Source of the DNA: Agromyces mediolanus
GTDB taxonomy: Bacteria; Actinomycetota; Actinomycetes; Actinomycetales; Microbacteriaceae
Direction of reading: 5' to 3'
Length of the DNA: 64,000 nt
NCBI RefSeq assembly: GCF_023715325.1
Contig: NZ_JAMBNX010000009.1
Span: forward strand, 1 to 64,000
The notes beneath the pieces are model-generated. The model searched no databases. It was not told the DNA's origin and worked only from the letters and a program-made list of their open reading frames with translations. A program made the translations under genes and the position numbers. Shown here piece after piece: positions 9,695 to 60,561 of this stretch (position 1 is the stretch's first letter; each line of letters begins with the position of its first letter).

Positions 9695-9820
9695 GTTCAC
9701 CGGGCATTCACCGGCGCACTCCCGACCGTCCTCCTTCGGCTCCTAGCTTCGCTCTGGCGCTGCGGTCCCGACGCCCGCTTCCACAGCTCGGGCGGCCCGG
9801 CGCCAGACGGAGGACACGCG

Positions 9821-36339: not shown

Positions 36340-36539
36340 GGACCTCGACCGTACGCGGCCGATCCGGCGGCGACATCCGTCCAGAGTCGGCCCGGGCATC
36401 ATCCGCTGGAACGACAACCGACGCGGCGTCCCCGAGCCCGCGCCCGCCGGGGCGCCCGAACCTGTGGGACCGGTGATCGGAATCGGCCCTCAGCGGAAAG
36501 TGGTCCGGGCCCGGCCGGTCGGTTTGTTAGCGTGAACGG

Positions 36540-56728: not shown

Positions 56729-57769
56729 TCAGCGCGCGGAGGGCGCCGGGCGCACCGCGACGGGCGCGGTCGAGCCGCGCACCACGAGCCGCGGCACGAT
56801 GTCCTCGACCTCGATCCGCTCGGCGCCGTGCACCTGGTTCAGCAGCAGCGCGACGGCCCGGCGGCCGATCTCGTGGAAGTCCTGGTAGACGGTCGTGAGG
56901 GTCGGCGCGACGTGCTTCGCCACCGGGATGTCGTCGAAGCCGACGACGCTGACGTCGCCCGGCACGTCGAGCCCGGCGTCGCGGAACGCGTGCATGAGCC
57001 CGATCGCCATCTCGTCGTTCGCGGCGAACACGGCGGTGAAGTCCCGCCGTCGCACGAGCTCGCTGCCCGCGTAGTAGCCGAAGTCGGCGGTCCAGTCGCC
57101 GAGGATCGGCGGATGCAGCCCGAGCTCGGCGTCGTCGATCGCCTCGAGGAAGCCGCGCATCCGCGCCTCGGCCTCGATCCAGTCCTGCGGCCCGGCGAGG
57201 TGCACGATCTCGCGGTGACCGAGTCCGATCAGGTGTTGCGTCGCACGCCGGGCGCCCGTCACCTGGTCGACCGAAAGCGCGAGGTGGTCGCGCCGGCCCG
57301 TCGACTGGAGGCTCACGAAGGGCACGCCGATCGACGACGCCGCGAGCACCTCGAACACGCGCACCTGGGGCGCGATCACGACGAGCCCCTCGATCGCCTG
57401 CAGCATCAGATGCTCGATCGCGTCGGCGATGCCCGCGGGCGAGGTGTCGGCGAGGTTCGCGGTGTTCACGTGGTAGCCGTGCTCGCGGGCGGCGTCCTCG
57501 ATCGCCGCGATGCTCGTCGCCGGCCCGTACGTGGTGCTCAACGCGGCGAGCACGCCGATCGTGTTGGAGCGACTGGTCACGAGGGTGCGGGCGGCGCGGT
57601 TCGGCCGGTACTGCAGCGTCTCCATCGCCTGCAGCACGCGCTCGCGCGTCTCGGGGCGGATGCTCGGGTGATCGTTCAGCACGCGGGACACGGTCTGGTG
57701 CGAGACCTCGGCCAGGCGCGCGACATCGCGGATGCTGGGCGCACGCCCGCGGTCCTGGGGAGGAGACAC
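56729..57769 (-). CDS. LacI family transcriptional regulator
   Basis: A 346-residue regulator from a GTG. The HTH and hinge helix read PSIRDVARLAEVSHQTVSRV then LNDHPSIRPETRERVLQAM (residues 11-50), and the sugar-binding core is IGVLAALSTTYGPATSIAAI through VSVVGFDDIPVAKHVAPTLT. It is upstream of and parallel to the importer operon. TGTG-N6-CACA-type sites before both transcription units indicate autoregulation and control of mmsA-mmsB and the binding protein. The start leaves the operator at 57786 outside the gene. Confidence 0.92.
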   Translation of the reverse strand: MSPPQDRGRAPSIRDVARLAEVSHQTVSRVLNDHPSIRPETRERVLQAMETLQYRPNRAARTLVTSRSNTIGVLAALSTTYGPATSIAAIEDAAREHGYHVNTANLADTSPAGIADAIEHLMLQAIEGLVVIAPQVRVFEVLAASSIGVPFVSLQSTGRRDHLALSVDQVTGARRATQHLIGLGHREIVHLAGPQDWIEAEARMRGFLEAIDDAELGLHPPILGDWTADFGYYAGSELVRRRDFTAVFAANDEMAIGLMHAFRDAGLDVPGDVSVVGFDDIPVAKHVAPTLTTVYQDFHEIGRRAVALLLNQVHGAERIEVEDIVPRLVVRGSTAPVAVRPAPSAR

Positions 57770-57785
57770 TGTTCGCCGATCCGAA

Positions 57786-57799
57786 TGTGCACGTTCACA
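57786..57799. promoter_or_regulatory. LacI-type operator TGTGCACGTTCACA before the lacI-type gene
   Basis: One mismatched pair short of a full palindrome, CG centre, 17 bases upstream of the regulator's GTG. Binding here would block its own transcription. Confidence 0.65.
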
Positions 57800-57851
57800 T
57801 CCACTGTCGCATCCATTATGCACGGCTCGCTCCCGGCGTACAGATCGGCGA

Positions 57852-57864: not shown

Positions 57865-58042
57865 ACGGGCGATCGAATCGAATCGACCAGCGACGAGCGG
57901 ATGAGAGCGCGTTCATTGAATCGCCGCGGGGACATTCGGGGAGCTCTTACAGATCCCGGCGGCTTCACCTCCGCGGATGCTGACCGCACTCCACCGCGCG
58001 GCGCGCGGGAGCCGGGCGAGCAACGCGCTGCCAGGGGTTTCT

Positions 58043-58048
58043 TATAGT
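58043..58048 (+). promoter_or_regulatory. Possible -10 element TATAGT
   Basis: The stretch 57865-58147 holds no gene. The only feature I see is an AT-rich patch (TTTCTTATAGTGTTTTTACC) with TATAGT about 100 bases before the broken secreted-protein gene. No clear -35 element. Confidence 0.3.
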
Positions 58049-58147
58049 GTTTTTACCTCAGGGTGTAACGCAATGCCCCGAAGTGGAAACACCTCTCCAG
58101 ACGGGCCGAAACCACTCGGCTCGACCGCACAGGCAGGAGCCCACTCC

Positions 58148-58799
58148 GTGAACACACCCCGAACGACCGTACTGGTTGCAGCCCTCGCGATCGCCTTCAT
58201 CGTGCCGTCGGCCCCCCGCCCAGGCGGAGGAAGTCGTCGACCCCCGACTGAGGGAATTCACGAGTGCCATCGGCGTCGGCGAGAGCATCGAGAGCGAGCT
58301 GCAGGACCTGGTGGATGACCTCACCGTCTCGGAACGGGAGGAGTTCCTCGCCGCCGCAGCCGAAGATCCCCTCGCCGTGATGGAACTCACTCCCATCTCG
58401 CCGGCGGAGATCGACTCGATGCCCATCGCCGTATCAGAACCCCCGGCCGTGCAGGGGTACGCGACAGCGAACCGTCGCCTCAACACCGCGAACCAGTCCT
58501 ACAAAGTCAGCGCGCTCGGGATCCAAACGGGCACCTTCAGCCTCCGCTACCGCTTCGAGTCGAACGGGACCGCTGTGACTCGGAACGTCGAGTGCACAGC
58601 GTGGTGGTCCGGGTTCTCCGGATTCGCGTCGATCTCGTCCACCGCGAAGCAGTGGATCTCCGGCGGCAAGGGCACCTGCATTGGAACCCACCGGATGTCG
58701 GTCCTCGTGAAGGGGAGCATGCTGACGGGTGTCAAGGAACAGGGCCTCAGCTACAACGGCAAGCCGGCGCTGCTCCGCAACTACATCAAGAACCTCTGA
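58148..58799 (+). pseudogene. Secreted protein gene with a one-base frameshift in the signal peptide region
   Basis: Reading from the GTG at 58148 (AGGAG 8 bases upstream) gives VNTPRTTVLVAALAIAFIVP, a good signal peptide, but the frame then runs into nonsense. From the next frame the mature protein continues as AEEVVDPRLREFTSAIGVGE to the stop at 58797-58799. Removing one C from the run of six at 58212-58217 joins both parts as IVPSAPAQA-EEVVDP, a textbook AxA cleavage site. The mature part (about 190 residues) has two Cys (VECTAWW, KGTCIGTH) and is not recognised by family. Either a real or phase-variable frameshift or a sequencing error. A small membrane protein gene follows 7 bases later. 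Confidence 0.75.
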
Positions 58800-58806
58800 G
58801 GGGGCC

Positions 58807-59103
58807 ATGACCACCGCTACACGCTCGCCGATCACCCTGCCCCAACCTCGAGACTGGGCGATCGCCGCCGCTCTGCTCGGCTCCGCCGCCGCCGCACTGG
58901 TGACCGCGCTCGGGCTGCTCCTCGGCGGGCTCGCACTGGTCTTCGCGATCCTCCGGCTCAGGCGGCGGCCGCCGCGCACCGCGATCATCCTGTTGAGCGT
59001 AGCGATCGCCGTGTGGCTCGTCGTCATGATCGTGAGCGTGGCCGCCGGAATCGCGGCGACCACGCAGAGCGGAACGCCCGAGGTCGTGCTCGAGACATCC
59101 TGA
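58807..59103 (+). CDS. Small membrane protein, unknown
   Basis: A 98-residue protein with GAGGGGG just before the ATG. Two or three hydrophobic segments: WAIAAALLGSAAAALVTALG with LLLGGLALVFAIL (residues 16-50), a basic turn RLRRRPPRT, and AIILLSVAIAVWLVVMIVSV (residues 60-80). No family recognised. It is 7 bases downstream of the frameshifted secreted-protein gene and surely cotranscribed, as a possible membrane partner (for example immunity or anchoring; inference only). Confidence 0.65.
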   Translation: MTTATRSPITLPQPRDWAIAAALLGSAAAALVTALGLLLGGLALVFAILRLRRRPPRTAIILLSVAIAVWLVVMIVSVAAGIAATTQSGTPEVVLETS

Positions 59104-59133
59104 GCGGCGGGTGCGCCAGCTCCACCCCGCTCA
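59101..59133. terminator. Hairpin overlapping two convergent stop codons
   Basis: TGAGCGG (59101-59107) and CCGCTCA (59127-59133) pair, with GGTG/CACC inside. It includes the stop codons of both the small membrane protein and the MFS gene. Confidence 0.4.
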
Positions 59134-60561
59134 GCTCACGGCGGCCGGGCGCACCCGCGAGGCGAGCAGCACGGCGACCACCGCGATCGCGAGCGCCACC
59201 GCGAAGTCCGGAGCGAAGCCGCCCCAGACCACCGCGCTCGAGACGAGCGCCGTGATGGCGAGCGCGATCGAGGCGCCGAGGGACTCCGCGATCGACAGCG
59301 CGGCGCTGTTGAAGCCCTGCGCAGACACCGGCGACAGGCTCAGCACCGCGACCGAGAAGCGCGGGTACATGAACCCCATCGCGCCGCCCGCGAGCGTCCA
59401 CGCGACGAAGGCGATCGCCGGGTGCAGGTGCAGGGCCGCGACCGCGAGCACCACGGCCAGCGCGACCACGAGCAGCGTCGAACCGGTGACGACGGCCCGC
59501 ACGTTCGAGATGCGGTCGCCGAGTCGGCCCTGCAGCCAGGAGGCGGCCGCCCAGCTCACGCCGGCCCCGGTCAGCACCGCTCCGGCGAGGCTCGGCTCGA
59601 AGCCGTAGTCCTCGATGAAGAGGTAGGGCAGGTAGATCTCGCTGCCGAAGAACGCCCCCGCGACCACGAGGCGCATGAGGACCGTCGCGGGCAGGCCGCG
59701 CGCGGCGCGCAGCGTGCCGGCCGGGAGCAGCGGACGCACCGCCACGATCACGACCACGACCGAGAGCGCCGCGACGACCCAGCGCAGCGGCGAGTCGAAC
59801 TCCTTCGCGAGCGACACCCCGAGGGCGGCGGCGGCGGTGAGCACCGCCCAGCCGACCCGCGACGGGCTCCAGCGCACCGCGGGGTCGCCCTGCACCTTCG
59901 AACGGGCGCGGAGGAGGGGCGGCAGCAGCATCGCCGTCGCGGGGATCACGATCGCGATCACGCCGAGGAAGACCCAGTGCCAGCTCGCCTGCTCGGCGAC
60001 GAACCCGGCCATGGCCGGGCCCACGATCGAGGGGATCACCCACGCCGCCGCGAAACCGGCGAAGACCCTCGCGCGGATCGCCTCGGGGTACACCCGGCCG
60101 ACGATCACGTAGAGCGGCACGATGACCGCGGCGCCCGCGATGCCGTGCACGAAACGGCCGACGATGAAGACGGTCATGTCGGTCGCGGTCCCGGCGATCA
60201 CGAGCCCGACGACGAAGAGCACACCGGAGGTGAGCAGTGACGGCAACGGGCCGTTGCGGTCGGTCCAGTTCCCGGCGATGACCATGCCGATGATGCCCGC
60301 GGCGAGCGGCACGGCGAAGGCGAGCGCGTAGAGCGTCTCGCCGTCGAGGTCGCGGGCGACGAGCGGCATGATCGTGGTGACGGCCATCGCCTCGAACGCC
60401 GCGAGGAAGATGAGCGCGAACATGCCGACCGAGAGCCAGCGGTACGGCCGGGCCAGCGGGCCGCCGACGGGCGGCGCGAGCACCGCCGGCCCTTCGCTCG
60501 CGGTCGGCTCGATCGGTGCCGCAGGGCGAGGGTCGGTGTCGGGGCTCGGGGAATCGCTCAC
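59131..60561 (-). CDS. MFS transporter (drug:H+ antiporter-like)
   Basis: A 476-residue carrier with about 12 to 14 helices after a 40-residue Pro/Ala-rich cytoplasmic N-terminus. FEAMAVTTIMPLVARDLDGE after helix 1, GNWTDRNGPLPSLLTSGVLF in loop 2-3 and VGRFVHGIAGAAVIVPLYVI in helix 4 follow the QacA/EmrB-like pattern. GIIGMVIAG lies in helix 2. The middle of the protein (LLRARSKVQGDPAVRWSPSR) is the cytoplasmic loop. Cargo unknown. It stands alone. Confidence 0.85.
   Translation of the reverse strand: MSDSPSPDTDPRPAAPIEPTASEGPAVLAPPVGGPLARPYRWLSVGMFALIFLAAFEAMAVTTIMPLVARDLDGETLYALAFAVPLAAGIIGMVIAGNWTDRNGPLPSLLTSGVLFVVGLVIAGTATDMTVFIVGRFVHGIAGAAVIVPLYVIVGRVYPEAIRARVFAGFAAAWVIPSIVGPAMAGFVAEQASWHWVFLGVIAIVIPATAMLLPPLLRARSKVQGDPAVRWSPSRVGWAVLTAAAALGVSLAKEFDSPLRWVVAALSVVVVIVAVRPLLPAGTLRAARGLPATVLMRLVVAGAFFGSEIYLPYLFIEDYGFEPSLAGAVLTGAGVSWAAASWLQGRLGDRISNVRAVVTGSTLLVVALAVVLAVAALHLHPAIAFVAWTLAGGAMGFMYPRFSVAVLSLSPVSAQGFNSAALSIAESLGASIALAITALVSSAVVWGGFAPDFAVALAIAVVAVLLASRVRPAAVS

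Follow-up and report, generated by a model that had tools for sequence, protein, structure and literature searches.

Homopolymers are a classic place for sequencing errors, and the tracts used for phase variation are commonly seven to eight bases or more in length. The described systems closest to the locus presented here fall in several areas of bacterial genetics. In slipped-strand phase-variable genes, as in Neisseria, Campylobacter and Cutibacterium acnes, a poly-C or poly-G homopolymer lies near the start of an exported-protein gene. For actinobacteria, the tract search in C. acnes took lengths of more than six and reported 54 polymorphic tracts, 96% of them G or C and some disrupting genes, among which HPT_10, mostly six bases long, does vary (PMC4746626); a similar search in Gardnerella took tracts of eight or more and reported variable ones (PMC11287997). 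Poly-C and poly-G are, according to PMC2831843, generally under-represented in genes. A frameshift in a C run may also be read through, as CCC-C is a +1-prone site for tRNA-Pro: CCC-CGU has been studied, with shifting of up to 1% quoted for the second codon in E. coli, and the native UGG tRNA-Pro in vitro is described as shifting rather by two bases with little +1 product (PMC4519876). At the level of gene gain and loss, a CIME is defined as an integrated element with attL and attR and without integration and transfer genes, and the repeats of tyrosine recombinases are quoted as 8-60 bp (PMC5704250). Finally, Lmo2686/Zea of Listeria monocytogenes is described as a small exported RNA-binding protein (PMC6907008).

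The locus analysed here lies in a 64,000-nt stretch of Agromyces mediolanus, hereafter the window, and touches on each of these systems. It comprises an exported-protein gene (gene 1), interrupted by one base in a C run, and a membrane-protein gene (gene 2) directly behind it. Like a recent frameshift pseudogene, or singleton frame transition, it combines a one-base homopolymer step with intact relatives and no further decay, whereas it differs from the ordinary case in that the gene 1 family has undergone three or more losses, with the neighbouring gene retained.

Frame break in the exported-protein gene

The window is on contig 89 of a 4.04-Mb draft assembly of 89 contigs (genome G000), which carries a single copy of gene 1. 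Reading on the forward strand from the GTG at 58148 gives a basic start, a hydrophobic stretch and, beyond a six-C run at 58212-58217, an arginine-rich tail; frame translation of 58148-58318 thus yields a signal peptide followed by an out-of-frame tail, 56 aa with a stop. The mature part, 192 codons, is open to its stop in another frame on the same strand (58221-58799), with helices predicted in an acidic part, a seven-strand beta domain in a basic part and two cysteines. As the signal peptide and the mature part occupy separate frames around the six-C run, the frame break proposed by the first-pass annotation holds. A ribosome site, AGGAG at 58135-58139 (forward strand, read by eye), leaves eight bases before the GTG and fits that start, as had been suggested, and the first start listed for the mature frame, TTG at 58176, gives no signal peptide by eye.

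The same annotation had placed the step at a single C within 58212-58217 and had called for comparison with the homologous gene. The syntenic gene in relative G030 is one base shorter, and two aligners both put the extra window base at 58212, the first C of the run, although its exact position inside the run is arbitrary. In all six other copies that keep a signal peptide (G030, G093, G401, L009, L010 and L011) the peptide is in frame with the mature protein, so that the gene of the window is frameshifted relative to its intact orthologues and the proposed one-base step agrees with the relatives. The signal peptide of gene 1 and its AxA cleavage site were read by eye; a simple hydropathy scan found an N-terminal hydrophobic segment in five of the six other signal-bearing copies, L011 being the exception.

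Gene 2 (58807-59103, forward strand) encodes a 98-aa membrane protein with two long hydrophobic segments in a hydropathy scan. The pair is flanked on the left by a LacI-family regulator on the reverse strand (56729-57823; alignment and domain check), the DNA of which is conserved in G003 and G030, and on the right by an MFS transporter, also on the reverse strand (59131-60561), which has matches in 55 of the 60 genus genomes (E 1e-30 or better).

Distribution of gene 1

Gene 1 is rare. Matches were found in 3 of 199 relatives (G000, G093, G030), in 4 of 398 family genomes when G093 served as the query (G000, G093, G401, G491) and in 2 of 60 genus genomes (G000 and G030). In searches of the order and of the phylum, 396 genomes each, only the window's own gene 1 was matched, with at most seven first-look candidates scored per genome, so that weak members could be missed. 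A search of genome contigs with an alignment returned 29 stretches and three relatives, in Leifsonia shinshuensis (L009), L. virtsii (L010) and Leifsonia sp. C5G2 (L011); with the window protein alone it returned 69 pattern stretches and no relative. Viral contigs gave 34 stretches, none of them a gene 1 relative, and plasmids and phages held no gene 1 match. The G491 protein is identical to the L. shinshuensis copy. A second G491 match, weak (E 9.2e-4) and inside a 712-codon frame, was dropped. In G093, G401, L009, L010 and L011 the gene is whole, at 211-256 residues, with its signal peptide in frame and gene 2 directly after it.

Comparison to curated families gave little by way of a name. 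Pfam had no match for the window protein or for the four-protein alignment set; NCBIfam gave two weak families over four aligned gene 1 proteins (best E 0.019), PHROGs one weak family for one of six gene 1 proteins, and PADLOC nothing for three secreted proteins. Judged by sequence, gene 1 appears to be a rare Microbacteriaceae family of exported proteins that carries no Pfam or NCBIfam name.

Origin of the frame break

We consider the break to be probably a recent slippage mutation in a dispensable exported-protein gene, that is, the ordinary loss of an optional gene and not an on/off switch. One C would have been gained in the signal-peptide region, the most probable mechanism being slippage of the C run during replication. 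A ribosome starting from the GTG at 58148 would then make the signal peptide and 33 foreign residues before stopping, and since this frame ends in foreign residues and a stop, mature protein would presumably no longer be exported; gene 2 is intact. That the break is recent is suggested by a mature frame that has not decayed, which keeps 27 of the 41 residues invariant in the other five sequences and has no internal stop. In the same test the intact G093 copy keeps 27 of 43, and the three Leifsonia copies and G401, which are closer to each other, keep 27 of 27-29. The mature frame thus looks undecayed, and this fits a recent break and fits an error equally well.

Indeed, the six C at 58212-58217 may stem from misassembly or represent a minority state. 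That the organism's gene is intact and the draft gained one C in a homopolymer, through sequencing or assembly, is possible but disfavoured, and we regard it as fairly improbable while still to be taken seriously. The draft state of the assembly, with its 89 contigs, the homopolymer site and the undecayed mature frame would all be compatible with such an error, and singleton frameshifts confirmed by BLASTp are, according to PMC3711429, expected to be sequencing errors rather than genuine indels. The quality of the surrounding sequence argues against it. When composition-called genes of 100 aa or more were compared over 164 kb of the contig, none of the 94 G030 genes with a match was frame-split, and 88 were full length in one frame. 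For G003, 77 of 90 matched genes were full length and three were split; two of these three are also split in G030, and at the third G030 and G003 disagree too. C or G runs of five or more were free of indels in 160 of 166 comparisons with G030 or G003. Gaps that were not triplets were seen against a relative in 11 of 54 called window genes, with those in five genes summing to a multiple of three each time; the other six were rejected as frame breaks, being judged doubtful calls or gaps near the end of the called gene. Other candidates were likewise set aside: 11 relatives' frames split in the window, together with 15 rows from the reverse comparison, were judged to be non-gene frames, and a split frame at 9780 was judged on closer look to be antisense of a gene.

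The first-pass annotation had gone further and read the homopolymer in the signal peptide as a site of phase variation. Of its overall interpretation, the one-base step in a C run that breaks a secreted gene is borne out by the in-frame relatives, whereas phase variation is not supported. Slipped-strand mispairing that adds or removes a C and so toggles export on and off would suit a homopolymer located towards the 5' end of a gene for an exported protein, and variable G/C tracts are on record for the actinobacterium C. acnes (PMC4746626) and for Gardnerella (PMC11287997). Compared with such genes, the run here is short, at six C lying below the lengths given for the searches in both of those studies. 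Nor is it kept in orthologues: the aligned place in G030 holds three C at most and no run, and no C or G run over five occurs in the first 105 nt of the six other signal-bearing copies. CCCCCC and GGGGGG runs are scarce in the window rather than in excess, nine against a shuffle mean of 57.4, and poly-C and poly-G are under-represented generally (PMC2831843). Four other six-base C or G runs lie in called window genes, by composition-only gene calls, and the frames of these are open. As HPT_10 of C. acnes varies, variation of a six-base tract is not impossible, and on balance we hold phase variation of gene 1 to be very unlikely.

A little exported protein might still be made by ribosomal +1 frameshifting, as the GTG frame reads TCG GCC CCC CGC and so has a slippery CCC-CGC (a motif of the kind in PMC4519876) in frame at the step ahead of an undecayed mature frame, and low-level leakage there is possible; but the six other signal-bearing copies are read in one frame and conserve neither motif nor step, so that CCC-CGC is no evolved recoding site, the UGG tRNA-Pro favours a two-base shift with little +1 product and the quoted 1% concerns another position and organism (PMC4519876), which makes this explanation highly improbable as well.

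Gene 2 and repeated loss of gene 1

A six-C frameshift by itself is ordinary, and the interest of a probable slippage loss here lies in its company. We see an exported family that has no Pfam or NCBIfam name and has a fixed membrane partner, is rare and patchy, is bracketed by repeats in several genomes and is decaying one-sidedly. Gene 2 comes after gene 1 in all seven gene 1-bearing loci, and a gene 2 search of 299 family genomes gave six matches that reached E 1e-6; in three of these (G087, G240 and G246) there was no whole gene 1 in the 1.5 kb on each side. The state of gene 1 varies between these places. In G030, at the same site as in the window, the signal peptide and the C-terminus are kept and 420 nt are missing between them; in G240 gene 2 is preceded by the last part of gene 1, which carries a frame change; G087 has just the last codons of gene 1 (read by eye); and G246 has no trace of gene 1 beside gene 2. 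Over ten gene 2 loci, with L009 and G491 taken as one, five retain a whole gene 1 and the other five have it broken, as a remnant or not at all, and gene 2 is open in all ten. Because G087 and G240 belong to one genus, we count the separate losses of gene 1 in the family as at least three, of which the break in the window would be one. Three of the ten loci were found via the gene 2 search, which makes an open gene 2 there partly a matter of ascertainment, and short genes survive longer by chance; the retention of gene 2 is for these reasons suggestive only.

Substitution patterns do not favour one gene over the other. Against G030, dN/dS is about 0.46 for the shared parts of gene 1 and about 0.47 for gene 2, compared to 0.13 for the MFS neighbour, and amino-acid changes fall below a rough neutral simulation for both (P 0.0035 for gene 1, P 0.0075 for gene 2). 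Both genes thus seem to be under weak constraint, and since this is shared by gene 1, selection does not set gene 2 apart. Between G087 and G240, gene 2 was not distinguishable from neutral (P 0.135). Its Pfam and NCBIfam matches were weak, all under curated cut-offs, and a single weak PADLOC match was found (E 0.0035). Ten of twelve gene 2 matches in the genus were discarded as general membrane likeness, at E 1.3e-4 or weaker compared with 1e-35 for G000/G030. As a separate observation, in G087 (L067, 944-1770) gene 2 and the last gene 1 codons lie about 450 nt behind a tRNA-Leu; in L010 another tRNA-Leu precedes the intact pair.

Empty site and flanking direct repeats

The stretch holding the gene 1-gene 2 pair (57916-59128, from alignment) has a counterpart of only about 120 nt in G003, where the window has 1.2 kb; the MFS protein of G003 is 95% identical to that of the window. 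The pair is absent at the G003 site and is an optional piece of the genome. In four of the ten loci (G030, L010, L011 and G401) it is flanked by direct repeats derived from the end of a neighbouring gene. The G030 repeat is 85-88 nt long at 93% identity and derives from the MFS 3' end, its copies at L003 1181-1265 and 1923-2007 bracketing the pair, and recombination between these 85-nt copies would remove the pair. The L010 repeat is 29 nt at 100%, from the tRNA-Leu 3' end and nine bases beyond, and those of L011 (141 nt, 97%; domain checked) and G401 (183 nt, 90%) come from the 3' end of a Dyp peroxidase gene. The window, L009, G093, G087, G240 and G246 have no such flanking repeat. Identity and length were used to score repeats because E-values proved unusable, with 49 of 400 random controls reaching 1e-7. 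On this basis, 3 of 400 random places showed repeats of at least 29 nt with 87% identity or higher, the cut-off having been picked after the repeats were seen and the control stretches (400 and 600 nt) being smaller than most locus stretches.

G030 also has a second insert of 698 nt (L057 13969-14739), which has no gene pair and starts 10 nt before the same 17-mer that lies upstream of the window's gene 1. It is set between 38-nt copies (86.8%, just under the repeat cut-off) of the end of a metallo-beta-lactamase-fold gene, and at this site G003 has one repeat copy and no insert. Elsewhere, alignment blocks show about 6 kb in G030 and about 11 kb in G003, at window positions 36415-36482, that have no counterpart in the window.

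The pair may, as repeats bracket it in four of ten loci, be the cargo of a small losable cassette. The arrangement recalls a CIME as outlined in PMC5704250, in that the direct repeats take in a tRNA or protein gene end, the gene is left whole and no recombinase is seen inside. It differs from that description in spanning only 0.7-1.3 kb, in having repeats of 29-183 nt that are mostly imperfect and mostly longer than the 8-60 bp quoted there, and in that no repeat is present at the window copy; a single crossover of a small circle would be expected to look the same. A wider reading, which we put forward as tentative and would not yet favour, is that Microbacteriaceae harbour a family of tiny integrase-less cassettes of 0.7-1.3 kb whose insertion sites are the 3' ends of tRNA and protein genes, which duplicate the gene end and which bring with them an exported protein that has no name, together with its membrane partner. 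The window frameshift would then be one step in a repeated inactivation of the exported protein during which the partner, perhaps an immunity protein, is kept.

Predicted fold and possible function

The six gene 1 proteins share an acidic front and a basic back: the N-terminal 60 residues, counted after a signal cut placed by eye, have a pI of 4.1 and the C-terminal 110 a pI of 9.6-10.4, and two cysteines are present. Structure models of the window protein (pLDDT 59) and of the L010 protein (pLDDT 73) show helices followed by seven long strands, with a linker in between that is poorly predicted. For both, the best structural match was PDB 4K15, Lmo2686/Zea of L. monocytogenes, at Z 7.9 (rmsd 3.6, 98 aligned) for the model of pLDDT 73 and Z 7.0 (rmsd 3.6, 88 aligned) for that of pLDDT 59, where a Z under 8 may reflect only a common arrangement. 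The next matches below 4K15 had Z of 5.0 and 5.5, and among the matches listed the VIA rows other than 4K15 stood at 5.5 or less. For neither model did Foldseek find a match that reached E 0.001, and a PDB sequence search returned nine antibody light chains (E 0.015 to 0.024) and no sequence match to 4K15. The gene 1 family is like Zea in being a small exported protein whose beta domain matches it best in both models, and unlike it in its additional helical part, which is acidic, and in the membrane gene next to it, with no sequence match between the two.

Conceivably, the acidic part keeps the basic domain covered until the protein has been exported. The function we consider most likely, very provisionally, is antagonism: gene 1 could encode an exported protein of bacteriocin type, and gene 2 its partner in the membrane or the protein that confers immunity, given that gene 2 is open at loci that have lost gene 1. 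Should gene 2 indeed confer immunity, the pair would make up a new, small system of antagonism, some of whose immunity genes are orphans. If it does not, the locus would still point to very small gene cassettes coming and going at the ends of actinobacterial genes.

Upstream hairpin and 17-mer

An inverted repeat upstream of gene 1 (58047-58092, forward strand) forms a predicted 46-nt hairpin that is conserved in G030 (z -4.1 in the window, -3.4 in G030). It is overlapped by a 17-mer, AGTGTTTYYACCTCAGG, at 58046-58062. Allowing up to one mismatch, this 17-mer was found in 2 of 60 genus genomes, both of them carriers of the pair, with no control matches, and G030 has it once more elsewhere. A 17-mer regulon was considered and rejected, since the one-mismatch matches in the 60 genomes mark only the two pair genomes; at two mismatches in three genomes, the reversed control yielded as many matches as the 17-mer (5 and 5). 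Not even the copy in the window was recovered by a strict inverted-repeat pattern, and sigma-70 and terminator scans gave nothing. On contig 4 of G000 (L072, 1501-2482), a match with two mismatches, which is at chance level, lies about 60 nt before a gene encoding a small, apparently exported protein of 140 aa with no Pfam match, and this gene is followed by a lipoprotein-like gene.
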